Shown here one piece after another: positions 44,124 to 57,420 of a DNA stretch of 64,000 bases; the first letter of the stretch is position 1, and the number at the start of each line of letters is the position of its first letter. The notes beneath the pieces were generated by a model. That model was not told the DNA's origin. It did not search any database and saw only the letters and a list, made by a program, of their open reading frames with translations. The position numbers and the translations under genes were made by a program. Origin of the DNA: Micromonospora sp. WMMD1128 (GTDB taxonomy: Bacteria > Actinomycetota > Actinomycetes > Mycobacteriales > Micromonosporaceae); assembly GCF_027497235.1 (NCBI RefSeq), contig NZ_CP114902.1, positions 998,501 through 1,062,500 on the forward strand, read 5' to 3'.

Positions 44124-45323
44124 ATGACGGTCGTGCATCCGATCGCCCGGGCCTGGATCACCACTGGCGGCACCGGCGCGCAGAACTACGACGAGTTCGC
44201 CGACGACGCGGAGATCACCGCCATCGTCGAGGCGAACCCGCACAGTGCCCTCGGCATCGAGATGCCCCACCGGGCGCCGGGCAGCCTCGGGAGTTCGTTC
44301 CTCGAGGCGCTCCCGGACGCGGTGGACCGCCTCACCGAGGCGAAGGCGGACGGCAGCTACACCCCGGCCGAGCAGGTCGTGGTGCTCTACCGGATCAGCG
44401 CGCCGGGGGAGGAGAGCGCGTACGGGCTGTGGGCGATGGTCGACACCGACCAGATCTCCACCCGCGCCGACGAGCCCGGCCTGGTGATCCGCAACGAGGA
44501 CGTGTTCATCGCCAAGGTGCGGGAGCGCGTCGCGTTGGCCGAGGCGCTCGGTCACCTGCTCTCGCCCGTACTCCTGCTCCAGACCGGGCGCGGCGACGAG
44601 CTGCACGCGGCGCTCGCGGCGGCCACCGAGGCGGCCGGCGCTCCCGCCGCGACCGACCTGGACCAGTCCGGCCGTACCCACGCGATCTGGCTGGTCGGCC
44701 CGGGCCCGGCGCAGGACGAGCTGACCGCGTTGGCCGGCGGCGGCGAGCTGGTGGTCGCGGACGGCAACCACCGCAGCCTGGCCGCGCAGACCGGCGGTTT
44801 CCCGCGCTTCCTCTCGGTGATCACCACGCCTGCGTCGGTCGCCATCCAGCCTTACAACCGGCTGGTCAGCGAGCTGACCACCACCCCGGACGAGCTGCTC
44901 GACCGGCTCCGCGCCGCGGGCGCCGAGGTCACCCCGGCCGCCGGCCCGGTCGAGGTCCCGGCCACCGGCGGCACCGTGCACCTCCACCTCGCCAGCGGTG
45001 GGTACGCGGTGACGCTGCCGCACACCGGCGACGACCGGTTGGAGAACCTCGACCACGCGCTCGTCGAGCGGTTGCTGCTGCGTGAGGCGTTGGGCCTCGA
45101 CCCGGGCGACAAGCGGATCACGTACGTGGGCGGCGACTACCCGGCGAGCTGGCTCACCGGCGAGGTCGACGCCGGCCGGGCCGAGCTGGCCGTGCTGGTG
45201 GCGCCGGTGACCGTGGACGACTTCGTCGCGGTCAACCTGGCCCGGGAGAAGATGCCGCGTAAGAGCACCTGGTTCACCCCGAAGGCACGGGCCGGCCTGG
45301 TGGTGGCCGAGATCCCCCGTTGA
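44124..45323 (+). CDS. DUF1015 family protein
   Basis: A 399-residue member of the DUF1015 group, proteins with a SerB-like or kinase-associated fold of uncertain activity. Family traits are the early ISAPGEESAYGLWAMVDTDQ with the EDVF segment, the core ELVVADGNHRSL (the signature ADGHHR-like motif, here with Asn-His) and ITYVGGDYPASW near the end. In some bacteria such proteins lie next to serine or D-3-phosphoglycerate enzymes; none is near here. ATG 44124 follows GTCAGCGGGC; the open frame from 44076 is not favoured. Confidence 0.82.
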   Translation: MTVVHPIARAWITTGGTGAQNYDEFADDAEITAIVEANPHSALGIEMPHRAPGSLGSSFLEALPDAVDRLTEAKADGSYTPAEQVVVLYRISAPGEESAYGLWAMVDTDQISTRADEPGLVIRNEDVFIAKVRERVALAEALGHLLSPVLLLQTGRGDELHAALAAATEAAGAPAATDLDQSGRTHAIWLVGPGPAQDELTALAGGGELVVADGNHRSLAAQTGGFPRFLSVITTPASVAIQPYNRLVSELTTTPDELLDRLRAAGAEVTPAAGPVEVPATGGTVHLHLASGGYAVTLPHTGDDRLENLDHALVERLLLREALGLDPGDKRITYVGGDYPASWLTGEVDAGRAELAVLVAPVTVDDFVAVNLAREKMPRKSTWFTPKARAGLVVAEIPR

Positions 45324-45339
45324 TCGGCGTGTGACGAAT

Positions 45340-45379
45340 CCGCCTCCGGGCCGCTGCCCGGGCACCGGCTCGGAGGCGG
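45340..45379 (+). terminator. Hairpin between DUF1015 gene and rpiB
   Basis: Arms CCGCCTCCG / CGGAGGCGG with a 22-base loop that can itself fold (GGGCCGCTGCCCGG). It ends 20 bases before the rpiB start. Confidence 0.6.
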
Positions 45380-45398
45380 GCCTGTCAGACTGCGCGGT

Positions 45399-45869
45399 AT
45401 GCGCGTCTACCTGGGATCCGACCACGCCGGTTTCGAGCTGAAGGTGCACCTGGCCAATCACCTGGCCAAACAGGGCTACGAGGTGGTGGACGTGGGTCCG
45501 CGCACCTTCGACCCGGACGACGACTACCCGGCGTTCTGCCTGCACACCGGCGATCGGGTGGTCGGCGATCCGGGCAGCCTCGGCGTGGTGATCGGCGGTT
45601 CCGGCAACGGCGAGCAGATCGCCGCGAACAAGGTGGCCGGGGTCCGGGCGGCGCTGGCCTGGAACGTCGACACCGCGCAGCTCTCCCGGGAGCACAACGA
45701 CGCCAACGTCATCGCGATCGGGGCGCGGCAGCACACGCTCGACGAGGCCACCGCCCTGGTCGAGGCGTTCCTGACCACCGCGTTCTCCGGCAACCCCCGG
45801 CACAGTCGGCGGATCGCCCAGGTGGCCGACTACGAGAAGAGCCGCCGGCTGCCCGAGTTGCCCGCCTGA
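45399..45869 (+). CDS. rpiB: Ribose-5-phosphate isomerase B
   Basis: RpiB interconverts ribose-5-phosphate and ribulose-5-phosphate in the pentose phosphate pathway. The 156-residue chain has the SDHAGFELK start with the ring-opening Asp-His, GGSGNGEQIAANKVAGVRAAL with the anion-binding loop, and SREHNDANVIAIGAR. As in M. tuberculosis RpiB, the active-site base appears to be an acidic residue rather than the E. coli Cys: the loop reads GGSGNGEQ with Glu. It corresponds to Rv2465c. Confidence 0.94.
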   Translation: MRVYLGSDHAGFELKVHLANHLAKQGYEVVDVGPRTFDPDDDYPAFCLHTGDRVVGDPGSLGVVIGGSGNGEQIAANKVAGVRAALAWNVDTAQLSREHNDANVIAIGARQHTLDEATALVEAFLTTAFSGNPRHSRRIAQVADYEKSRRLPELPA

Positions 45870-45896
45870 CGGGTCGCGTCCGGGGCGGCGCGTCGG

Positions 45897-46499
45897 TCAG
45901 CGTCCGCTGCGGGGCAGTTCCTCGCGCGGCACCCAGTTGCGGCGGACCAGCACCACTCGCTGTTCCGCCTCGGCGAGGTCGTCCTCGCTGGGACGGGCGG
46001 CGTCCCGGGCCCGCATCGCGGCGGTCACGCTCACCTGCGACGATCCCGAGCCGACGAGGCCACGCAGTCCGCGTTCCCCCTCGTCGGCGGACGGTGCGCC
46101 ACGTCGGCCCCGGTGCTCCGGCTCCGACTCGGCGCGTCGAGCGAAGCGTGGTGCCCGGACGCCGTCATCCGATGGCTCGGGCTCGCCGCGTCGGACGCCG
46201 CGCCCGGGGCGGGGCGCGACGTCGTCGTGCACCGCGGCCGTGCTCGCGCTCATCTCCCCGGCGTTCACGCCGGCGTCGGGGGGACCGCTCATGTTCCGGG
46301 CGCTGGTGTCGGGGGGGCCGCTCGTCCGGGCGCTGGCGCTGGTGTCGGGGGGACCGCTCATCTCCCCGGCGCTGACGCTGGCGTCGGCGGGACCGCTCGC
46401 CTCGCCGTGATGCCGCAGCCGCCGTCGCCGTCGCTCTGCCTCACCCACCCCCCGACCGTACCGCCCCCACCGTCCACTTTCCCGCCCCCGCCCGTCCAT
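45897..46499 (-). CDS. Low-complexity hypothetical protein with SGPPDTSA repeats
   Basis: A 200-residue protein with three parts: an Arg-rich start, a region (about 35-90) of four degenerate repeats near SGPPDTSA with SAGEMS between, and a better-ordered C-terminus (about 145-200) with SSQVSVTAAMRARDAARPSEDDLAEAEQRVVLVRRNWVPREELP. The last part looks like the conserved core and could alone be the real protein, with the start moved inward. No function is recognisable. Confidence 0.6.
   Translation of the reverse strand: MDGRGRESGRWGRYGRGVGEAERRRRRLRHHGEASGPADASVSAGEMSGPPDTSASARTSGPPDTSARNMSGPPDAGVNAGEMSASTAAVHDDVAPRPGRGVRRGEPEPSDDGVRAPRFARRAESEPEHRGRRGAPSADEGERGLRGLVGSGSSQVSVTAAMRARDAARPSEDDLAEAEQRVVLVRRNWVPREELPRSGR
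46250..46405. repeat. Degenerate minisatellite inside the low-complexity gene
   Basis: The core gtcggggggaccgctc recurs four times with spacings of roughly 34-40 bases, with gcgctggcgctggtg-like fillers. It encodes the SGPPDTSA repeats on the minus strand. Confidence 0.7.
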
Positions 46500-46587
46500 C
46501 CCGCGCCGGCTCTCGCCGGTCGATCATGAGGTGGGCTGGGATAATCCAGACGAGGTGCCACAACTCCTAGATCGCCGCGTGCAGGCC

Positions 46588-46639
46588 GAGATCTTGGAGG
46601 GAAACGGCCCCTGGAGGGGCGCTTAGCTTCCAAGATCTC
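46588..46639. repeat. 52-bp palindromic element P3
   Basis: Starts GAGATCTTGGAGGGAAACGG and ends in CCAAGATCTC around CCCCTGGAGGGGC, the same design and exact length as P1 at 787-838 with different inner arms. It lies in a 285-base gap between two divergently/tail-placed genes. Confidence 0.85.
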
Positions 46640-46785
46640 TCCGGCTCCTGATATGGGAGATGGATTGTCCACCATATGGGACGGGTGCAGTGGGTGGAAC
46701 GCCATGGGTGGCCCCAGGCCGTTCAGACACCCATGACGTGCCGGCCGCGCCCACGTATAAGCCCGACGAGCAGGCCCGCAGCCAC

Positions 46786-48006
46786 TCAGAAGACCTCCAT
46801 GGGGGCGGGGGCGCGGTGCCAGGGGAAGGCCGCGGTCAGGGCGGTGAGCGTGTCCGGGTGCAGCTCGCGGACCCGGCCGGCGGCGGCCAGCGCGGCCGGG
46901 GTGACGCCGCCCAGATATAGCTCACCGAGCGCACGGACGTCGCAGGCCAGCCCGGCCGGCGCGGTGGTGGCCGTGCATTCCGCGCCGGCCGGGCCGCCGA
47001 CCAGCCGCCACCGCCCGCTGTTCTCCGGCAGCAGTTCGTCGGTGACCTCGATCACCACGTCGACGTCGGCGGCGTAGCGGCGGGCGGCGAGCGCGGCCGG
47101 CACGTCCACCACCCGCACCCAGAGCGCGTCGGCGAGTTGCGGGGCGAGCTGCCGGGGCTCGTCCACCAGGCGCAGCAGCGGCTCGTCCACGGCGGCGGTC
47201 GGGAAGGACAACCGCCGGGTCAGGTCGACCGAGAGCAGCAGCCGCCACAGCGCCAGGGACGCCTCCGGGGTGACCGCCACCACCTCGTCGACCCGCACCT
47301 CGCCCCGGGGGACGTCGCCGCTCCACCCTTCCTTCGTCCGGTAGAGCGCGTACCCGTCGAGCCCGTCCGGGCCGTCGTGCAACAGCACCCGGCGTTCGGT
47401 GGCACCGTCCCGCCGGCTCTTCACGTCCGCCAGGACGTACGCCCACCAGCGTTCGTCCCGGCGGGACCAGCCGGGACGGTCGGCGCGTGCCCGCTCGTAC
47501 AGCCGGGCCAGCTCGTGCCGGTGCGTGGCCGGTCGATCCAGGCGAAGCGTGCCCTCGGCGGGCGTCGGGGCGGGCAGCCGCAGCCCGGTGGTGTCGGCGG
47601 TCAGCATCAGTCGCTGCGCCGCCGAGCCGTAGCCGAAGCGGGGGTAGATGCGGCCCTCGCTGGCCCAGAGCACCGCGACCGGCTCGCGGCCGGCGTCGCG
47701 GATGTCGCGTAGCTGCCGCCGCATCAGCCCGGTGAGCAGGCCGCGCCGGCGGTGCGTGGGCGCGACCGCGACCATTGAGACGTGCGCGGCCGGCACGGTC
47801 GACCCGGGCACGGTCAGGTCGCGGCCGAACGCGGCGGCGTGCGCGACCGGGGCCCCGCCGTCGCGGACCAGCAGCGAGCGTTCCGGCTCGAAGATCGGGC
47901 GTTCGACCTCCTGCACCTCCGGGTCGATCTCGCCGTGGAAGGCCAGGGCCAGCAGCGCGGCGATCTCGTCGAAGTCCTCGGCCCGGGGCACCACCGCGTC
48001 GGTCAT
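46786..48006 (-). CDS. Eis-like GNAT N-acetyltransferase
   Basis: A 406-residue tripartite acetyltransferase of the Eis family: N-terminal GNAT with the acetyl-CoA loop VAVAPTHRRRGLLTGLM, a second GNAT-like domain without a cofactor loop, and a C-terminal sterol-carrier-like domain. YPRFGYG has the Tyr that acts as general acid in Eis, and the chain ends in EVF; in M. tuberculosis Eis the terminal Phe carboxylate is the general base. Eis enzymes acetylate many amines, including aminoglycosides. It stands alone in the backbone. Confidence 0.9.
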   Translation of the reverse strand: MTDAVVPRAEDFDEIAALLALAFHGEIDPEVQEVERPIFEPERSLLVRDGGAPVAHAAAFGRDLTVPGSTVPAAHVSMVAVAPTHRRRGLLTGLMRRQLRDIRDAGREPVAVLWASEGRIYPRFGYGSAAQRLMLTADTTGLRLPAPTPAEGTLRLDRPATHRHELARLYERARADRPGWSRRDERWWAYVLADVKSRRDGATERRVLLHDGPDGLDGYALYRTKEGWSGDVPRGEVRVDEVVAVTPEASLALWRLLLSVDLTRRLSFPTAAVDEPLLRLVDEPRQLAPQLADALWVRVVDVPAALAARRYAADVDVVIEVTDELLPENSGRWRLVGGPAGAECTATTAPAGLACDVRALGELYLGGVTPAALAAAGRVRELHPDTLTALTAAFPWHRAPAPMEVF

Positions 48007-48105
48007 CGCACGTGTCTACCCCACCACCGTGGGGGTCGGCACCCTATTTGCGGGGTGGCTACCCTCGGAACCGAGGCCGACGTCGGTCGAGGGGGAGGAC
48101 GGAAG

Positions 48106-48636
48106 ATGGCGGACCAGACACAACCGTGGGCGGAACGCACCGTGGAGGTGCCGCCCCAGCCGGACGTGGCACCCGGGCAGCGGGACGCGTTCCAGCGCGG
48201 GGTGGCGGCGGTCGGTCAGCCGCGTACGCCCCGAACCGAGCCCTTCCCCACGGTGGAGCACGGCGACTGGGCCGGTGAGTCGGCGCCGCGCCGGTCGATG
48301 AGCTGGCACCTCGCGCAGGCCCGTCGGGGCGGGGAGTGGAGTGCCGCCGGCGCTCTGTTCGCGTTCGTCTGCTGGGGCATCTGGGCGATCTCCGGCCGGG
48401 GGAATCTGATCGCGCCGCTGCTCACGTTCGTGCTGAGCCTGCTCACCGCGGTCGGGGTGTTCGCGCTGGTGCGGCTGCTCGGCCGGCTGATCCTGGAACG
48501 GCAACTCGGCCGGGTGCGCCGCAGCGCCCGCGGCGCGCACATGATCACCGCGTTGTTCCTGGCCGGCGTCGGCGTGGCCTATCTTCAGCAGACCGAGTGG
48601 GTGGTCTCGGCCTGGAACTGGGTCACCGGCAACTGA
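48106..48636 (+). CDS. Membrane protein, hypothetical (176 aa)
   Basis: After a 70-residue polar N-terminal region (MADQTQPWAERTVEV...) there are three hydrophobic segments: AGALFAFVCWGIWAI, LLTFVLSLLTAVGVFALVRLLG and MITALFLAGVGVAYL. A basic stretch (RRSARG) lies between the last two. ATG 48106 has GGAGGACGG upstream. No family motif is seen; it is likely an actinobacterial inner-membrane protein. A G/C hairpin follows the stop. Confidence 0.8.
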   Translation: MADQTQPWAERTVEVPPQPDVAPGQRDAFQRGVAAVGQPRTPRTEPFPTVEHGDWAGESAPRRSMSWHLAQARRGGEWSAAGALFAFVCWGIWAISGRGNLIAPLLTFVLSLLTAVGVFALVRLLGRLILERQLGRVRRSARGAHMITALFLAGVGVAYLQQTEWVVSAWNWVTGN

Positions 48637-48647
48637 GCCGCGTGGCG

Positions 48648-48679
48648 GCGGGCGGGTCGGCGTGGTGCCGCCCGCCCGC
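48648..48679. terminator. Hairpin between the membrane-protein gene and the Hsp70-like gene
   Basis: Arms GCGGGCGGG / CCCGCCCGC (9 bp, perfect) with a 14-base loop, 12 bases after the stop at 48636 and facing the convergent Hsp70-like gene. Confidence 0.65.
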
Positions 48680-48852
48680 GCGCCCGGTCGCGGTACGCCG
48701 CGACGCCGGCCGTCACTCCACCAGGACGGCGCTGGCATTACCCGGCCCGGCCCGGTTCATCCGTCGCCCATCGGGGTGAGCGGCGCTCCGCGAACTCACG
48801 GGCGGCGTCGCCCACTCCCGCTCAAGCTCACATTCGGTCACCGCCGGGTCGG

Positions 48853-51800
48853 TCACCCGGCGAACCGGTACAGCCGGAACTCCTTCTCCGCGCCGCACAC
48901 CAGCATCTCGGTGTTCCACGAGCAGGACTCGCTGCGGATCTGCGTCACCTTCCCCATCTCGTACGGCTTGCCGTCCACCGCGAGCCCGGCCAGGACGCGG
49001 TCGTCCTCGTAGCCGCTCGGCTCCTTGTCGAACAGCAGCAGGTTGCCGGCGTCCAGCCGGACCGCCACGCCGTCGCGGTCGCGCAACCTGACCGTGCCGT
49101 CCGGCGTGAACAGCGTCACCGCGTCCCGTGGGGTGTCCCGTTCGGCGAGCAGGTGGTCGCCGAGCGGGACCAGCCGCCGCGTCCGTGGCGCCGGCCAGTG
49201 CCGACTGTCCTCGCCCTCGGTGGCCACCACCACCCGGGCGTCGTCCGCGCCGGCGCTCGGCACCTCCAGCAGGCAGGCACGGTGCTCGCCGCAGCTGACA
49301 AGCGCCTGCGCCCGGCTGCCGGCCTCGGTCGCCTCGTACAGCACGTCGGGCACGCCGAGCGCGCCGAGATCGTAGGACACGAGCCGCAGGCTCCGGCCGC
49401 TCTCCGCCACGTACAACCGGTCGTCGCGGGCGGCCACCGGGTCGTCGAGGTCGGCCACGTTGCCCCGGCTGCGCAGGATCTTCCCGTCCGTCATGGCGAG
49501 CACCCGCACCGAGCGGTCCGCGCCGACCTGCACCAGCCGGTCCGCGTTGCCGGACCAGGGCGCGCGCGGCGAGCCGTCCGCGTATGCCGCGCCGTCGAGC
49601 GCCGCGCCGGTGCCGACCGGCACCACCACGGTGCGCGTGTCGCCGTACTCGCTGCGTGGGTTGTCCCGCGTCCACCGCGGCCGGCCGTCGTCCAGCCGCA
49701 GCCCGACCAGCCGGTTGCCGGCGCGGTCCACCCAGACCAGCGTGTCGGCCCCGGGCAGGATTTCGTCGTCGCCGTGGATGTCGACGGCCCACCGCTGCGC
49801 ACCGCTGCCGCCGTCGAGCACCAGCAGGGGCCGGGGCGTGCTGGAACCGGAGGCGTCGGCGACGACGGCGACCCCGTCGGGCAGCGCCCGGATCCCGGCC
49901 CACCGGTCGGCGCTCGCCGGGGTCGGCTTCTCCCAGATCTTCCGACCGGTGGCCGGGTCCACGGCGACCACGTTCAGCCGGTCGTCCGGCAGCGACCAGG
50001 CCAGGTAGGCGCGGTCGGCAAGCATCGCGGTGAACATCCCGTCCGGCCGCTCGTCACCCGCGGCGATGCTCCCGACCAGCTCCGGCGAGTGGAAGTCGAG
50101 CGCCGGGTGCCGGTCCCGGAACACCCAGAGCAGCGTCGCGGCGACCAGGCCGACCACGGTCAGGCCGGCGCCCAGCGCGATCCAGCGACCGCGCCGGCTG
50201 CGTCCCGGTCGGCCACCGCCGGCCGGCGGCGCGCCAGCCGGCGATCCGGGCCCGCCGGGACCGGCCGGCGAGGAGGGCCAACCCGGGGGTACGCCGGGCG
50301 CGGCGTACGCCGACGCGTCGGAACCGGGCGGCGGGGCAGCAGGGTACGCGTGCCCTCGCGCGTATGCGGCTGGGATGGGTGCGGGTGGTGCGGAGGTCGG
50401 GGCGTACCCGGGCGGGGTGGGGCCGGGTGGTGCGGAGGTCGGGGCGTACCCGGGCGGGGTGGGACGGGCCGGGTCGGCGACGAGCGTGCCGTGCGGGCCG
50501 CCGGGCGCGGTGGTCGCCGCGTCGGCGGCCGTGCCGTGCGGGCCGAACGCCGCGGCCCGGTCCTCCCGGGTCGGGCCGGGCGTCGCGTGGGCCACTGTCG
50601 TCCCCCCTCCGGCGGGGTCGGCCACCGTGTCGGCCGCGGCGGCGTGCGCCGGTGGTCCTTCGGGTTCCGCCGGCGGGCGCACGGGTTGCGCCGGCGCGGC
50701 GGGCCGACCGGCCCGGCGGGGCAGCGGCAGGTCGGTGAGCGCCCCCTCGGCGACCGGCAGTTCCGGCTGTTCCAGCACGGTCGGCGCGATGCCCAGCTCG
50801 GCGTGGAGCAACCGGGCCACGAGCGGCACCCGGGTCGACCCGCCGACCAGGAAGAGGCCGGAGAGCTGTTCCGGGCGCAGACCGGCGGCGGCGGTCACGT
50901 TCCGGGTCTCGGCGACGGCGCGCGCGAGCAGCGGCGCGGCGAGGCGCTCGAAGTCCGTCCGGGTCAGCGGGAACGCCGCCTCGACCCCCGGTACGGCCAC
51001 CGGCGCGACCGTGGCCCGGGAGAGCATCTCCTTCGCGCCGCGCACGTTGTCCCAGAGCTGCTGCCGGTCCCGCCGGTCGGCGGTGGCCGCCGGCTCGGCC
51101 AACCGGGCCCACTGCCGGGGGTGGGCCGGCCGCACCAGCTCACCGAGCCGTCCGAGCAGGGCCGCGTCCAGGTCGAGGCCGCCGAGGTCGGCGAGCCCGC
51201 CGGTGGCGACGAGGTGGAAGCCGGAGTCGCCCCACGGGTCGGCGCCCTCGTTGCGCAGCACGGCGATGTCGAGCGTGCCGCCGCCGAAGTCGAACACCGC
51301 CACCGCGCCGCCCACCGGCACCGGCCGGCGCAGCACCTGGGTGTAGTAGCGGGCCGCCGCCACCGGCTCGCGCAGCAGGCGGGTGCCGGGCGTGATCGGA
51401 CCGGCGAGCGTGTGTTCGGCCGCCGCCGGCCAGCCGGCGAGTTCCAGCGCGTCGTGCAGGACCTGGCGCCGGGGCGGGTCCCAGGCCGCCGGGTGGGTCA
51501 CCACCGCCGGGGGCAGCAGGCCGACCGACGCCACCGCCGCGTCCGCGACCGCCCGCAGCGCCGCGGCCAGCAGCTCCGCCGGCCGGTACGCCCGCCCGGC
51601 CAGCTCGACCGTCGGCTCGTCGATCCGGCGCTTCGGGTTCGGCTCGTAACCGACCGGGTCGGCCTGGGCCAGCCGCTGGGCGTCCCGCCCGACGTGCAGG
51701 TGGCCGTCGGTGTCGGCGTACACCCCGGACGGCAGGATCGGCTGCCCGTCCACGAGCACCGGCCGGGTGGTCCCGTCCGGCCGGCGCAGCACCGCCACGG

Positions 51801-51855
51801 TGTTCGAGGTGCCGAGGTCCACGCCCAGGGCGAAACCGTCCCGCTGGCCTGACAT
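48853..51855 (-). CDS. Membrane-spanning Hsp70-family protein with extracellular beta-propeller
   Basis: A 1000-residue chimera. Residues 1-370 are an Hsp70/actin-type ATPase: GVDLGTSNTVAVL (phosphate 1), VAVFDFGGGTLDIAVL (phosphate 2) and FLVGGSTRVPLVARLL (adenosine). No Hsp70 substrate-binding domain follows. Instead there is a Pro/Ala/Tyr-rich linker (about 370-555) with PGYAPTSAPP repeats, one membrane helix (557-579) and an extracellular PQQ/WD-like beta-propeller (590-1000) with repeated DG-W and LVVLD-type blades. It looks like a transmembrane sensor that ties outside binding to an inside ATPase. It is divergent from the trypco2/trypsin-STAND genes, 281 bases apart. Confidence 0.85.
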   Translation of the reverse strand: MSGQRDGFALGVDLGTSNTVAVLRRPDGTTRPVLVDGQPILPSGVYADTDGHLHVGRDAQRLAQADPVGYEPNPKRRIDEPTVELAGRAYRPAELLAAALRAVADAAVASVGLLPPAVVTHPAAWDPPRRQVLHDALELAGWPAAAEHTLAGPITPGTRLLREPVAAARYYTQVLRRPVPVGGAVAVFDFGGGTLDIAVLRNEGADPWGDSGFHLVATGGLADLGGLDLDAALLGRLGELVRPAHPRQWARLAEPAATADRRDRQQLWDNVRGAKEMLSRATVAPVAVPGVEAAFPLTRTDFERLAAPLLARAVAETRNVTAAAGLRPEQLSGLFLVGGSTRVPLVARLLHAELGIAPTVLEQPELPVAEGALTDLPLPRRAGRPAAPAQPVRPPAEPEGPPAHAAAADTVADPAGGGTTVAHATPGPTREDRAAAFGPHGTAADAATTAPGGPHGTLVADPARPTPPGYAPTSAPPGPTPPGYAPTSAPPAPIPAAYARGHAYPAAPPPGSDASAYAAPGVPPGWPSSPAGPGGPGSPAGAPPAGGGRPGRSRRGRWIALGAGLTVVGLVAATLLWVFRDRHPALDFHSPELVGSIAAGDERPDGMFTAMLADRAYLAWSLPDDRLNVVAVDPATGRKIWEKPTPASADRWAGIRALPDGVAVVADASGSSTPRPLLVLDGGSGAQRWAVDIHGDDEILPGADTLVWVDRAGNRLVGLRLDDGRPRWTRDNPRSEYGDTRTVVVPVGTGAALDGAAYADGSPRAPWSGNADRLVQVGADRSVRVLAMTDGKILRSRGNVADLDDPVAARDDRLYVAESGRSLRLVSYDLGALGVPDVLYEATEAGSRAQALVSCGEHRACLLEVPSAGADDARVVVATEGEDSRHWPAPRTRRLVPLGDHLLAERDTPRDAVTLFTPDGTVRLRDRDGVAVRLDAGNLLLFDKEPSGYEDDRVLAGLAVDGKPYEMGKVTQIRSESCSWNTEMLVCGAEKEFRLYRFAG

Positions 51856-52136
51856 CCTTCGCTACCTCCACCGACGTGGGCTTGTCCGGTCCCGCATCGT
51901 ACGCAGCCCGCGCCGCCGCGCTCCCCGGCCCGCGCCCCGGGCGGGAGATCGGAGATCGGGTCGTCGGAGTCGAAGCCGGTGGTCACGGCTGTCGTGTTGC
52001 CGACCCGGGCACCGCACCGACCGACCCAGCTATGGCTGTTTGCCCCGTTATGCGCGTCCTCGGCGGCGTTCCGGGACTGGGCCGGGCCGATACCCTTTCC
52101 GTCTATACGTGGGCCACCCAGACACGGAGGTAGTTC

Positions 52137-52463
52137 GTGGACGACGGCACCGTCCTGATGGATGAGTACGGCGTTTCCCTGTCGACCGCGATCGGGCTGC
52201 TCCGCGCCGAGCTCACGGAGGCCCTGGCCGACGGCGCCGACTCCCAGATCCGGTTCGCCGTCGACTCGATCGAGCTTGAGCTGGAGTTGGTGGTCGACGC
52301 CGCCCGCGACGCTTCCGGCAAGCTGACGCTGTGGCGTGTGCTGTCGGCCGGCGGTGGGCGCAAGCACACGAACACGGCCACCCATCGGATGACCCTCACC
52401 CTCAAGCCGAGGGACACCCTGCTACCGGCATCGGGGGAGACCCTCATCGGCGACGACAGCTGA
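52137..52463 (+). CDS. Trypco2-domain protein
   Basis: A 108-residue protein that fits the trypsin-co-occurring domain 2 (trypco2) pattern: a helix VSLSTAIGLLRAELTEALADGA, a strand IRFAVDSIELELELVV, a turn, LTLWRVLSAGG and the terminal THRMTLTLKPRD. Trypco2 proteins are known as small partners encoded beside trypsin-type effector genes of predicted bacterial conflict systems, and they are not enzymes. It lies 22 bases before the trypsin-STAND gene, so the pair is one operon. GTG 52137 follows CGGAGGTAG. Confidence 0.85.
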   Translation: MDDGTVLMDEYGVSLSTAIGLLRAELTEALADGADSQIRFAVDSIELELELVVDAARDASGKLTLWRVLSAGGGRKHTNTATHRMTLTLKPRDTLLPASGETLIGDDS

Positions 52464-52485
52464 GCCGACCGGGGGGACATCGGGG

Positions 52486-55400
52486 ATGCAGTCGGTCGCC
52501 TCGCACATCGCTCGCCTGGCCCTGGTGCAAGGGGCGCGGCGTGGCTCCGGACATGTGGTCGGCCGCAACCTGATCCTCACCGCCGGCCACGTGGTCGGCC
52601 CGCTGGGCGCGACCTGCCGCGTCCGCGTGCACGGGGACGCCGAACGCGACGGCGCCGTGGTGTGGCGGGCGGACCACCTGCACCTGGACGCCGCGCTGGT
52701 CCAGGTGCCGCAGTCCGGCTGGCCCGAGTCCACCCCCGACATCCGGTACGGCGAACTCGCCGGCCCGCAGCCCGTCGAATGCCTCACGGTCGGCTACCCG
52801 TTGGCGAGCGTGGACGCCGACGGACGGAGCGGGGTCGAGGAACACGCGTGGCTGGTGGCGCCCGGGACCGGCGTCGAGCGGGACCGCTATGCGCTCAACA
52901 GCGTTCTCACTCCGCCGCACGAGCGGGTGGCCACGTCAGGTGGACCGCGCTCGGGCTGGGCGGGCCAGTCCGGTGCCGCCCTGCTCAGCGGCGACGGCCG
53001 CGTCGTGCTCGGGGTGGTGGTCGCCGACCCGAACAGCTTCGGGCCGGGACGCCTGGAGGCGGTGCGGGTCAGCTCGCTGATGAGGGACGGGGTGTTCGGC
53101 AACTGGGTCGGGGTCGCCCCGGACGACGTCGTCCGCCTCACCGCGAAGGGCCAGGCCGACGAGCCGCAACTACCGCCGGGCATCGTTCCGCACGCGGACG
53201 AGGTGGCCGGCCTGGACGGGCTGTTGCGCAACCTGCAGGAGGAGTGTCTGCCCTTCGTGCCGCCGATGGACGCCACGGCGCCCACGCATCCCGACCGCCT
53301 GCTCGAGCGGCTGAACGAGTCGGCCGGACGGTCGGGCGTGCTCCTGGTCGGCGCCGCCGGGGCCGGGAAGACGCGCACCTGCTTCGAGGTCGGCATGCGG
53401 GCGGAGAAGGACGGGTGGACCGTCCTGCACGTGAAGTCCGGTGAGCCGCTGGTCACCAACGCGGATGTGGCGGAAGCGCTGCAGTCCGTGGGCAGCGAAC
53501 GGACTCTGGTGATCCTCGACTACCTCAACGAGTGCCGGGGCCTCGACCTGCCCGGCCTCCGTCAGCAGGTGCTGCCGGAGGCCAGGCGCCACGGCACCCG
53601 CGTGGCGTTGCTGGCGTCCGCGCGGCCCGGTTGGCAACTTCAGACGGCAGCCGAGCTCACTCCGCTGTTCGACCTCGTCCGCCTGGCTCCGGACGACCAG
53701 CAGGCGGCCAGGATCCGCCAGCAGGTGGTGACCTCGCTGTCCCCGACCGCGCTGGGCATGCTGGGCGAGGAACGCCTGCTGGAGCTCTGCGGCAGCCGGC
53801 CGATCATCGCCATGCTCGTCGCCCTTGAGGCGGAGACGCGCGCGAAGGCGGGGACGCTCAACCGCGCGCTCCCGAGCGTCCGTCCCGGGGAACTCGTCGA
53901 CTGGCTGAACCGGCGCCTGCGCGAGGACGGCCTGCTCCCGCAGGCGGTGAGCCTGATCAGCGACCCCGAGCCGAGCGTGGAACTCCAGACGTGTGTCGCC
54001 ATGGCGGTCGCCGCCCCGCAGGAGCGGACGAGCCTGATCGCCTGCGGGGGCCGCGTCGCGGGCGGCGACACCGAGCGGGCGGAACACCTGCTCGGGATCC
54101 TGCTCACGATGGGCTGGCTGGTGCCCAGCTTCGGCGAGTACACGACCGTGCACGACATCGTCACGGACCAGCTGACGGAGAGCACCTTCCATCGGCCCGG
54201 CAGCGGGACGGTGCGCTCCGCGGTCGCCGACCGGATCCTGGCCGCCTCGCTGACCCGAGGTCGGACGATCGGGAGGTACGCCACGAACCTGGGCCGCCTG
54301 ATGCGCGACCTCACCCTGGAGCAGCGGTCCGGCCCGTTGCAGGAACACTGCCGACACTGGCTGGAGGGTCACGAGCGGGAGGTGGGTGGTCTGCTCGCCG
54401 AGCAGCAGGACGAGGGGGCGTACGCGCTCGGCGCGGTGATGGACAACCCCTCGTGGTCGCCCGTCGCGTTCGGCAGGTGGGACACCGTCGTAGCGCCGTG
54501 GCTGGCGGTGCACGCCCGCACGTTCTCCGCCCGCCACCTGCTCTACAAGGGCCTGCGGGCCTCGGTCTCCGACGATCGGTTGGTGCGCGAGTCGATCGAG
54601 TGGCTCGCGGTCCACCATCGGGCGGAAGCCACCTTCGTCCTGCGTCCCCTGTTGCAGCGGGAGCTCTCCGACGAGCAGGCCGCAGTGGTCGTACGGCGGG
54701 CCCTGGCGTGGCTCGACGACCACGCCACCACGCTCAATGCGCAGTTCGTGCTCCAGCCGCTGCTGGACCGCGAGTTGTCCGACGAGCAGGCCGCCAAAGT
54801 CGTCCGGCACGCCCTGGCGTGGCTCGACGACCACGCCGCCACCTTCAACGCGCGGTTCGTGCTCCAGTCGCTGCTGAGCCGTGAGTTGTCCGGCGGGCAG
54901 GCGGACGTCGCCGTCCGGCACGCCCTGGCGTGGCTCGATGATCACCTGGCCGCTCTCGACGCCGGCTTCGTGCTGTGCCCGCTGCTGGGTCGTGAGTTGT
55001 CCGGCGGGCAGGCGTGCGTCGCCGTCCGGCACGCCCTGGCGTGGCTCGATGATCACGCGGCCACCTTCAGCGCGCGGTTCGTGCTGCGCTCGCTGCTGGA
55101 TCGTGACTTGTCCGGCGAGCAGACCAGCGGCGTCGTCCGGAACGCCGTGGCCTGGCTCGATGACCACGCGATGACTCTCGACGCGCAGTACGTGCTGCGT
55201 TCGCTGCTGGAGCGCGAGTTGTCCGACGAGCAGGCCACCAAGGTCGTCCGGCATGCTCTGGCGTGGCTCACCGACTACGCCGACATCGCCGACGCCGGTT
55301 TCGTGTTGCGTCCGTTGCTGCAACGTGAGCTGTCCGGCGGGCCGGCCACCAGCGTGGTCCGGCAGGCGTTGGTGTGGCTCGACGTCCACGCCGCCACCCT

Positions 55401-57000
55401 TGAGGGGCAGTTCGTGTTGCGGCCCCTGCTCCAACGCGAGCTTCCCGACGAGCAGGCCGGACCAGCCGTCCGGCACGCCCTGGTGTGGCTCGACGTCCAC
55501 GCCGCCACCCTCGACGGGCAGTTCGTGTTGCGGCCCCTGCTCCAACGCGAGTTGCCAGACGGGCAGGCCACCAGCATCGTCCGGCACGGCCTGGCGTGGC
55601 TCACCGATTACGCGGACATTGTCGACGCCGGTTTCGTGTTGCGTCCGTTGCTGCAACGTGAGCTGCCGGACGGGCAGGCCGCCACGGTCGTCCGGCATGC
55701 CCTGGCGTGGCTCGATGATCACTCGGTCGTTCTCGACGCCGGTTTCGTGTTGCGTCCGTTGCTGCAACGTGAGCTGCCGGACGGGCAGGCCGCCACGGTC
55801 GTCCGGCATGCCCTGGCGTGGCTCGCCGAGCATGCCGCCACCCGCAACGCCGGCTTCGTGTTGCAACCGCTGCTGCACTGTCCCCTGTCCGACGGGCAGG
55901 TCAGCGCCGTTGTCCGGCACGCCCTGGCGTGGCTCACCGAGTACGCGGCCACCCTTGACGCGCAGTTCGTCCTGCGCCCGTTGCTGGATCGCGAACTGCC
56001 CGCAGAGCAGGCCGCCACCGTGGTCCGGCACGCCCTGGCCTGGCTCACCGGGTACGCCGACACCGTCGACGCCGGCTACGTGCTGCAACCGTTGTTGCAA
56101 CGTGAGCTGTCCGACGATCAGGTCACCACGGTCGTCGGGTACGCGTTGGCGTGGCTCACCGCGCACGCCGGCATTCTCAACGCCGGCTTCGTCCTGCGAC
56201 CGTTGCTGCAACGTGAGTTGCCCGGTGAGCAGGCCGCCACCGTGGTCCGGCACGCCCTGGTGTGGCTCACCGCGTACGCCGCCACGTTCAACGCCAGCTT
56301 CGTGTTGCAACCGCTGCTACGACACCGGCTGCCCGGTGAGCAGGCCGGCACGGTCGTCCGGCACGCCCTGGCGTGGCTCGCGGGGCACGCCACCGACATC
56401 GGCGCGCGGTTCGTGCTGCGCCCCCTGCTGCAACGACCGTCCCGCGGCGAGCAGGCCGCCTCGGTGGTCCGGTACGCGTCGGCGTGGCTGGCCGTGCACG
56501 CGGTCACGCCCGGGGCGCGGTTCGTGTTGCAGCCGTTGCTGCAACGGGAGCTGTCGGACGAGCAGGCGGCTTCGGTGGTCCGGTACGCGTCGGCGTGGCT
56601 GGCCGTGCACGCGGTCACGCCCGGGGCGCGGTTCGTGTTGCAGCCGTTGCTGCAACGGGAGTCGCCGGACGAGCAGGCCGTTCCGGTCGTTCGGCACGCG
56701 TCGGCGTGGCTCGCCGTTCACGCCACCACGTCCGGTGCCGGTTTTGTCTTGCAGCCGCTGCTGCGGCGTGAGCTGTCGGACGAGCAGGCGGCTTCGGTGG
56801 TCCGGTACGCGTTGGCGTGGCTGGCCGCGCATGCCGGCACGTCCGGGGCGCGCTTCGTGTTGCAGGCGTTGCTGCAGCGTGAGCTGTCGGATGATCAGGC
56901 CGCCTCGGCCGTCGGACATGCCCGGGCGTGGCTCGCCGACCACGCCGCCGCCCCGGCCGCCGGCACGCTGCGCGCCCAGCTGGATCGGATGACCACCTGA
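52486..57000 (+). CDS. Trypsin-like protease-STAND NTPase with 37-residue repeats
   Basis: A 1504-residue chain in three parts. Residues 1-210 are a trypsin-like serine protease with triad His35 (LTAGHVV), Asp68 (LHLDAAL) and Ser162 (GQSGAAL), and no signal peptide, so it acts inside the cell. Residues about 270-620 are a STAND-type NTPase: Walker A GAAGAGKT (289-296), Walker B LVILDYLN (Asp345), a sensor-1-like Arg380 in SARPGW, and a winged helix with VHD (555-557) in the MHD position. Residues about 720-1500 are twenty full and two partial 37-residue two-helix repeats, the likely ligand sensor. By analogy with antiviral STAND proteins, ligand binding would assemble the NTPase and unleash the protease, killing or arresting an infected cell. 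Confidence 0.9.
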   Translation: MQSVASHIARLALVQGARRGSGHVVGRNLILTAGHVVGPLGATCRVRVHGDAERDGAVVWRADHLHLDAALVQVPQSGWPESTPDIRYGELAGPQPVECLTVGYPLASVDADGRSGVEEHAWLVAPGTGVERDRYALNSVLTPPHERVATSGGPRSGWAGQSGAALLSGDGRVVLGVVVADPNSFGPGRLEAVRVSSLMRDGVFGNWVGVAPDDVVRLTAKGQADEPQLPPGIVPHADEVAGLDGLLRNLQEECLPFVPPMDATAPTHPDRLLERLNESAGRSGVLLVGAAGAGKTRTCFEVGMRAEKDGWTVLHVKSGEPLVTNADVAEALQSVGSERTLVILDYLNECRGLDLPGLRQQVLPEARRHGTRVALLASARPGWQLQTAAELTPLFDLVRLAPDDQQAARIRQQVVTSLSPTALGMLGEERLLELCGSRPIIAMLVALEAETRAKAGTLNRALPSVRPGELVDWLNRRLREDGLLPQAVSLISDPEPSVELQTCVAMAVAAPQERTSLIACGGRVAGGDTERAEHLLGILLTMGWLVPSFGEYTTVHDIVTDQLTESTFHRPGSGTVRSAVADRILAASLTRGRTIGRYATNLGRLMRDLTLEQRSGPLQEHCRHWLEGHEREVGGLLAEQQDEGAYALGAVMDNPSWSPVAFGRWDTVVAPWLAVHARTFSARHLLYKGLRASVSDDRLVRESIEWLAVHHRAEATFVLRPLLQRELSDEQAAVVVRRALAWLDDHATTLNAQFVLQPLLDRELSDEQAAKVVRHALAWLDDHAATFNARFVLQSLLSRELSGGQADVAVRHALAWLDDHLAALDAGFVLCPLLGRELSGGQACVAVRHALAWLDDHAATFSARFVLRSLLDRDLSGEQTSGVVRNAVAWLDDHAMTLDAQYVLRSLLERELSDEQATKVVRHALAWLTDYADIADAGFVLRPLLQRELSGGPATSVVRQALVWLDVHAATLEGQFVLRPLLQRELPDEQAGPAVRHALVWLDVHAATLDGQFVLRPLLQRELPDGQATSIVRHGLAWLTDYADIVDAGFVLRPLLQRELPDGQAATVVRHALAWLDDHSVVLDAGFVLRPLLQRELPDGQAATVVRHALAWLAEHAATRNAGFVLQPLLHCPLSDGQVSAVVRHALAWLTEYAATLDAQFVLRPLLDRELPAEQAATVVRHALAWLTGYADTVDAGYVLQPLLQRELSDDQVTTVVGYALAWLTAHAGILNAGFVLRPLLQRELPGEQAATVVRHALVWLTAYAATFNASFVLQPLLRHRLPGEQAGTVVRHALAWLAGHATDIGARFVLRPLLQRPSRGEQAASVVRYASAWLAVHAVTPGARFVLQPLLQRELSDEQAASVVRYASAWLAVHAVTPGARFVLQPLLQRESPDEQAVPVVRHASAWLAVHATTSGAGFVLQPLLRRELSDEQAASVVRYALAWLAAHAGTSGARFVLQALLQRELSDDQAASAVGHARAWLADHAAAPAAGTLRAQLDRMTT
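54658..56989 (+). repeat. 111-bp tandem repeat array in the STAND gene
   Basis: Twenty-one units of 111 bp (37 codons), each starting near RELSDEQAA and containing VVRHALAWL and FVLRPLLQ. A degenerate unit precedes them. Units at 56437-56658 include two that are almost identical at the DNA level (the stretch ggtccggtacgcgtcggcgt recurs 111 bases later), a sign of recent duplication or gene conversion. Confidence 0.92.
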
Positions 57001-57030
57001 GCGGGCGGCCATCGGCACGCGAGATCGCGG

Positions 57031-57101
57031 AGCGGGCGACGGGAATCGAACCCGCGTAGTCAGTTTGGAAGACTGAAGCTCTACCATTGAGCTACGCCCG
57101 C
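57031..57101 (-). tRNA. tRNA-Gly(TCC)
   Basis: On the minus strand: acceptor stem GCGGGCG/CGCCCGC, D arm GCTCAATGGTAGAGC, anticodon arm TCAGT-CTTCCAA-ACTGA with anticodon TCC, variable CTACG, T arm CGGGTTCGATTCCCG, discriminator T. 71 nt, no encoded CCA. It is convergent to the trypsin-STAND gene, 30 bases past its stop. Confidence 0.95.
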
Positions 57102-57260: not shown

Positions 57261-57334
57261 CGGGGTGTGGCGCAGCTTGGTAGCGCACTCGCTTTGGGAG
57301 CGAGGGGCCGTGGGTTCAAATCCCGCCACCCCGA
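57261..57334 (+). tRNA. tRNA-Pro(TGG)
   Basis: Acceptor stem CGGGGTG/CACCCCG, D arm GGCGCAGCTTGGTAGCGC, anticodon loop TTTGGGA with anticodon TGG, T arm with GTTCAAATC, discriminator A. 74 nt, CCA not encoded. Confidence 0.95.
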
Positions 57335-57420
57335 CTGTCGTTCGCGACCGGATCGTCCCGGGAACCACCGGTTTCTCCGTGTGCTGCCCGGGCGCTGCCG
57401 ACGCCGCAGCCCGACTCGCC

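Follow-up and report, generated by a model that had tools for sequence, protein, structure and literature searches.

Genes and domain architecture

The window analyzed here, a stretch of 64,000 nucleotides from Micromonospora sp. WMMD1128, carries a pair of genes encoding a small Trypco2 protein and a long protein that combines a trypsin-like protease, a STAND-type nucleoside triphosphatase (NTPase) and an array of 37-residue repeats. Both frames of the original prediction are present on the plus strand: the Trypco2 protein of 108 amino acids (52137 to 52463) and, 22 bases downstream, an open frame of 1504 amino acids (52486 to 57000). The Trypco2 gene has a GTG start preceded by GGAGGT, and a promoter and terminator scan of positions 51700 to 52300 found nothing. 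Assignment of the small protein to Trypco2 (PF19631) is far above the Pfam cut-off (E value of 1.9e-23, 82.9 bits versus 24.2), and the next gene bears the trypsin domain.

The trypsin-like domain occupies residues 11 to 199 (52516 to 53082, plus strand) and matches Trypsin_2 (PF13365) above the Pfam cut-off (E value of 1.6e-9). The predicted triad is intact, with H35, D68 and S162 all present in the 1504-residue chain. A protease fold in the N-terminal part is also indicated by VIA-align of the full model, in which the best 50 rows were all protease-fold entries; these rows are uninformative on other domains. The NTPase (residues 269 to 455; 53290 to 53850, plus strand) contains the Walker A motif GAAGAGKT at 289 to 296 and a Walker B-like LVILDY with D345. 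It is followed by a winged-helix-like segment (residues 498 to 568; 53977 to 54189, plus strand), recognized from helices and a hairpin in the AlphaFold 2 (AF2) model and from the invariant H556-D557 of a TVHD motif (VHD at 555 to 557). Every STAND motif that had been predicted was therefore found, and K295, T296, D345, H556 and D557 are invariant across 30 aligned sequences. The nSTAND_NTPase5 profile (PF25199) scored 29.3 bits (E value of 8.5e-7) against a cut-off of 34 with the protein alone, and 34.3 bits in the genome search for the NTPase with its neighbors in the frame.

The AF2 model of residues 1 to 1160 had a mean predicted local distance difference test score (pLDDT) of 87.3 and a predicted template modeling score (pTM) of 0.64. 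Foldseek with the full model ranked the complex of Avs4 with a phage portal protein (8dgf) first (E value of 2.2e-6), at a TM-score of only 0.14 and a root mean square deviation (rmsd) of 37. The top match among viral models was an archaeal-virus trypsin-like protein, which was not used as evidence. PDB sequence searches with the STAND part and with the array gave no matches at E values up to 1.

Repeat array and concerted evolution

The C-terminal array consists of 21 tandem units of exactly 37 residues (residues 712 to 1488; 54619 to 56949, plus strand), with one degenerate unit, recognized by eye, just before them, so that the predicted figure of about 22 two-helix repeats was a fair estimate. 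Tandem Repeats Finder reported 20.9 copies of 111 bp with 77% matches (54634 to 56953). In the AF2 model, each unit forms a short helix A (columns 4 to 12) and a long helix B (columns 18 to 35).

When species genomes were scanned with 30 aligned homologues, 59 loci were recovered, of which most are actinobacterial and a few belong to other phyla. One protein from another Micromonospora (P0003) is 79% identical over residues 1 to 720; its array has 18 units, against 21 in the window. Compared position by position, its units are only 0.43 to 0.69 identical to those of the window, and the nearest relative lies within the same array for all 21 units of the window protein and for 16 of the 18 units of P0003. 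Against all other arrays, 20 of the 21 units were nearest to their own array (a partial count). The same holds for 113 of 125 units in 13 arrays with an internal identity of ≥0.60, L040 being an exception (3 of 7); units with over 7 gaps were dropped from this count, leaving 125 of 132. Judged from these sequence comparisons, units within arrays evolve in concert. Internal identity is 0.65 in the window's array, below the 85% threshold used for fungal repeats (PMC4986451), and above it in P0004 (0.92), P0029 (0.88) and L030 (0.87). Near-identical units may be miscounted in draft assemblies; the genome containing the window is assembled as one contig. At one locus (L042, the same place as L006), the contig ends inside the array at its right end, as expected if short reads cannot cross near-identical units.

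No second repeat donor was detected in the genome: a search for an 18-base pattern, allowing ≤2 mismatches, gave 4 sites in the array and 2 elsewhere, equal to the control, and a protein search of the genome found one place. A frame of 369 amino acids containing repeats only, about 57% identical, is present at a separate locus from the genus genomes (L013, 1495 to 2577, plus strand), with no NTPase, trypsin or Trypco2 match within the 4 kb examined.

Variable columns of the array

Arrays with an internal identity of ≥0.60 were classed as homogenized, a threshold set after the values of the first arrays had been seen and kept for the later set. A duplicate of L030 (P0014), near copies (P0070 and P0067) and loci repeating a species were dropped before counting. 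In the 13 homogenized arrays, columns 5 and 9 were the most variable, with mean ranks of 4.1 and 5.2 of 34. They lie four residues, or one helical turn, apart in helix A (A4-x5-F6-V7-L8-x9-P10-L11-L12), and 84% of 132 units have G, Q or R in column 5. When limited to the 18 columns that vary between arrays, the mean ranks were 3.6 and 4.5 (permutation P of about 1e-4, with columns shuffled within arrays and recombination outside the model), and P was 1.5e-4 when three related arrays were omitted. Columns 9, 13 and 5 were the top three in eight arrays with an identity of 0.45 to 0.60; this set was kept apart from the first test, but its values had been visible beforehand.

A later search with the array as query, in which 120 of 173 matches were listed, provided at least 106 new proteins, 104 of them with five or more units. 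Twelve of these arrays were homogenized, and in the 10 that remained after removal of redundancy, columns 5 and 9 ranked 1.8 and 3.1 of 18, the next column ranking 7.1 (0 of 10000 shuffles). Columns 9 and 5 were again first in 27 later arrays with an identity of 0.45 to 0.60. The pattern suggests that the units present a receptor surface, diversified through recombination and mutation. From the sequences, and by analogy with characterized systems, we consider it somewhat probable that the protein is an NLR-like receptor that frees its protease once the fast-evolving solenoid binds a foreign ligand.

Several results weigh against this interpretation. The pair of columns does not stand out in arrays with an identity of <0.45 (32 arrays, and 65 later arrays with P of 0.30). 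The six most variable columns of the window's own array are 23, 2, 22, 34, 3 and 13 rather than 5 and 9; the claim for columns 5 and 9 therefore concerns the family, and the window's array shows the pattern only moderately. In 10 of 12 arrays, nonsynonymous divergence (pN) at columns 5 and 9 exceeded the synonymous divergence (pS) found in the other columns, but pS at columns 5 and 9 is itself high (in the window's own array, 0.67 versus a pN of 0.46), so that diversifying selection is not proven. PADLOC, which holds Avs models, gave only SspF for the 1504-residue protein (E value of 0.028, not credible) and no match for Trypco2 when the window's proteins were scanned. Among the proteins of six relatives, PADLOC matched L053 to RT-Protease_XI over the protease domain (1.4e-8), OloA (1.2e-5) and PDC-M35A (3.2e-4), and L031 to a caspase model (0.0022); the other four had no match.

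The array could instead be a scaffold or assembly surface for homo- or hetero-oligomerization, with columns 5 and 9 varying because constraint on exposed residues is weakest there and not because they read ligands. Exposed residues of helices generally tolerate substitution, and the high synonymous divergence at both columns fits this explanation, as does the behavior of column 9, which is still 3rd or 4th of 18 in unhomogenized arrays (identity of <0.45) and has a within/between entropy ratio (0.54) near that of several other columns. Column 5 behaves differently. It is only 14th of 18 in unhomogenized arrays, where columns 23 and 27 vary more, and is therefore not simply the least constrained. 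Its within/between ratio in homogenized arrays is 1.0, compared with 0.25 to 0.6 for most between-array variable columns (exceptions include 3, 24 and 10). An array acting as a scaffold or assembly surface is considered somewhat unlikely.

Array fold and possible ligands

Modeled alone, residues 690 to 1081 gave a pLDDT of 91.3 and a pTM of 0.79, and the predicted structure is an alpha-solenoid. PUF domains occupied ranks 1 to 23 in Foldseek with this array model (best E value of 1.1e-6, TM-scores of about 0.3 to 0.45, rmsd of about 9 to 16), and VIA-align preferred importin-alpha. No sequence kinship with PUF was found by Pfam or hhalign (hhalign probability of 0.1%), and the five matches of the repeat profile in the PDB (E values of 0.11 to 1.8) are not credible. 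Arrays are net acidic, whereas residues in columns 5 and 9 tend to be basic or neutral, a combination that does not discriminate between kinds of ligand.

These comparisons bear on the explanation that the array binds nucleic acid in a PUF-like manner, one base per unit, the ligand being foreign or phage RNA. In addition to the structural ranking, the variable columns flank an aromatic residue (x5-F/Y6-x-x-x9), much as the base-reading residues of PUF proteins flank Tyr, and hhalign places them in the PUF base-reading register. Within the 65-residue piece compared, the only differences between PDB chain 2yjy and Pumilio 1 fall at these two places, and columns 5 and 9 contain more K/R than D/E. 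Recognition of RNA base by base is nevertheless judged quite unlikely.

A broader proposal is that each unit recognizes a single element of a linear foreign ligand, which could be a peptide or a nucleic acid, via columns 5 and 9, and that recombination among near-identical units rewrites the recognized string. This is unlikely in our estimate. If true, such a modular reading array would give bacterial immunity an equivalent of TALE, PUF or designed armadillo arrays, coupled to executioners that include trypsin and caspase. Columns 5 and 9 provide a handle for a ligand search and for asking whether recognition is modular.

Trypco2 and exchange of effectors

The NTPase-array module is joined to trypsin in 28 of the 59 loci (confirmed by Pfam in all 9 of those scanned) and to caspase-like or other N termini in the remaining 31. 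Fourteen loci matched a caspase hidden Markov model (HMM) at an E value below 1e-50, the only matches counted, as the HMM included a family-wide linker that makes the label loose; 7 of the 14 had been used to build it. Pfam confirmed 7 of the 11 whose N termini were scanned and gave no match for L049, L066, L067 and L078; L034, L035 and L041 were outside the Pfam scan. Other N termini on the module include SMEK (L063), DUF4062 (L064) and EAD8 (protein P0030).

Trypco2 is present in 20 of the 28 trypsin loci and in none of the 31 others (Fisher P of 1.1e-9), and in those 20 it is directly upstream (gap of −68 to +48). Among the eight trypsin loci without it, six have a relative of a predicted pentapeptide-repeat membrane protein, one has Trypco1, and none of these partners was found in L074. 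A Trypco1 gene also occurs in L062, which is in the nontrypsin class. Within the genus, the combination of Trypco2 and trypsin is also found with NB-ARC/TPR (L126), CHAT/TPR (L129) and nSTAND5/TPR (L127) proteins; in the frames scanned, trypsin alone was found in L128 and only TPR in L125 and L130. The locus counts and the TPR-type partners together indicate that Trypco2 follows the protease and that the NTPase-array module joins several effectors. As Trypco2 follows the protease rather than the sensor, it may be the partner of the protease, and as no enzyme family was found in it by the Pfam scan, it could act as an adaptor or substrate.

The search with the Trypco2 protein found eight homologues, with a single Trypco2 match in its own genome, and 28 of 160 genomes of the genus carry Trypco2. 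Trypco2 proteins of the window's type keep a C-terminal TLIGD tail down to 55 to 58% identity, which could dock into the protease, and one Trypco2 protein (P0046), encoded on a contig of 6.59 Mb, has two changes relative to that of the window besides the start. The predicted pentapeptide-repeat membrane protein that replaces Trypco2 (L025, 7129 to 7986, plus strand, with relatives in L003, L024, L026, L027, L040 and L042) occurs in a sister group, where its gene overlaps the beginning of the protease gene, and is a candidate protease substrate or pore; its assignment is based on Pfam for L025 and L003 and on hydropathy for L003, L025 and L026. L126 (1 to 6147, minus strand) contains Trypco2 and a trypsin/NB-ARC frame of 2049 amino acids that is truncated where the piece ends and has 22 TPR_12 stretches; here the same two effector components are combined with a different long repeat sensor.

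Distribution and chromosomal slot

The 1504-residue protein was matched in 13 of 160 Micromonospora genomes, its own included, with some matches partial; at most three candidates were scored per genome, and remote relatives may be missed. The distribution is sporadic rather than genus-wide. The pair lies between an HSP70/PQQ-repeat gene on the left and, on the right, tRNA-Gly, tRNA-Pro, tig, clpP1, clpP2 and clpX, in this order. The two adjoining tRNA genes are as predicted, with tRNA-Gly (57029 to 57101, minus strand) at the edge of the slot and tRNA-Pro (57261 to 57335, plus strand) beyond it. The left flank is kept in 16 of 24 same-genus relatives. Thirteen of these 16 were compared (G004, G016 and G022 were left out), and all 13 lack the protein. 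In the nine in which both edges were reached, the slot is 997 to 10071 bp long, with frames that differ by eye. The site beside tRNA-Gly is a variable slot. The suggestion that the pair interrupts a conserved gene order therefore holds for the left flank but not for the slot itself, which differs among relatives.

No integrase and no reverse transcriptase were found among the 10 neighboring proteins scanned. No 9-base word is common to the left edge and the tRNA-Gly region, as would mark a tRNA attachment repeat, and no tRNA-Gly words of ≥12 bases occur in positions 45000 to 57010. The same slot in another species (L123, 4428 to 5438, plus strand, and neighbors) has a frame that resembles a caspase by eye and an NTPase-like frame.

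The frame ends 28 bases before tRNA-Gly, with tRNA-Pro and tig within about 0.5 kb and clpP1, clpP2 and clpX within about 3.6 kb, but it is very improbable that the protein regulates Micromonospora proteolysis in a housekeeping or developmental role and owes its position beside tig-clpP to that function, given that 147 of 160 genomes of the genus have no match and that the slot varies from 1.0 to 10.1 kb with differing frames in the nine relatives in which both edges were reached.

Proposed mechanism

In the general STAND model, ligand binding leads to NTPase exchange, assembly and activation of the effector. For an NLR-like receptor of this kind, the N-terminal protease would be kept inactive until the C-terminal two-helix array binds a foreign ligand, with columns 5 and 9 as the putative ligand-reading surface. 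Unequal recombination between units may change the number and choice of readers in line. Binding of the ligand along the array would then trigger NTPase exchange and assembly or oligomerization, switching the protease on, as proposed by analogy with what is reported for the trypsin-fused STAND protein of Avs1 (PMC12799240) and from the STAND model. The active protease would cut cellular or partner proteins, Trypco2 possibly being its own partner, as adaptor or substrate, and the infected cell would then probably stop growing or die. The original observation is confirmed, and its interpretation as an abortive-infection-type system with a protease released by ligand sensing is partly supported.

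Comparison with known systems

The Trypco2-trypsin conflict systems (Kaur et al. 2020, PMC7159879) resemble the window in having a Trypco2 gene adjoining a trypsin-bearing core protein and in the exchange of trypsin and caspase effectors. Trypco2-trypsin was described there beside VMAP with vWA and MoxR. In the window, the core protein is a STAND-solenoid fusion, and neither vWA nor MoxR was found among the 10 neighboring proteins scanned, so the pair does not conform to the VMAP ternary system. The new element is that homogenized arrays, whose units evolve in concert, keep their variability chiefly at columns 5 and 9. No publication on hypervariable positions in alpha-solenoid arrays of bacterial STAND proteins appeared among the listed results of a literature search, which were limited in number where many papers matched and covered few subscription papers or preprints.

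After infection, the trypsin-STAND fusion protein of Avs1 cleaves a pro-nuclease whose gene lies upstream (PMC12799240). Avs1 shares with the window the N-terminal trypsin on a STAND protein and the partner gene directly upstream, but its partner is an MBL-fold nuclease rather than Trypco2, and the window's proteins lack a credible PADLOC match. CARD-NLR and LypABC systems (PMC13236601) also combine trypsin-like peptidases with an NLR-like ATPase and helical repeats, although as separate proteins, unlike the fusion in the window, and homogenization of arrays is unmentioned in the part of that source consulted. Characterized bacterial STAND defense proteins bind conserved phage proteins via C-terminal sensors (PMC10907252).

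In bacterial STAND proteins such as WRAP (PMC9218822), the C-terminal part likewise consists of repeats that were amplified recently, but these are near-identical beta-propeller blades, in contrast to the helical solenoid described here, for which per-position variability was measured. PUF and ARM solenoids share with the array the helical solenoid geometry predicted by the model, with no sequence kinship found.

Fungal NLRs, e.g., HET-D/HET-E, have concerted repeats with few variable codons per repeat at the interaction surface (PMC4986451 and PMC12222747). Those with high internal repeat conservation share with the present proteins both concerted repeats and an NLR-like layout. The proteins described here differ in being bacterial, in having a 37-residue alpha-solenoid unit without a credible Pfam repeat family, in having two main variable columns and in having an array common to several effector classes. 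Concerted evolution with few variable positions, the hallmark of the fungal proteins, is found at the level of the family and only moderately in the window's own array. A mostly actinobacterial family shows the signature of fungal NLRs: repeats are kept alike, and the same few positions are left variable.
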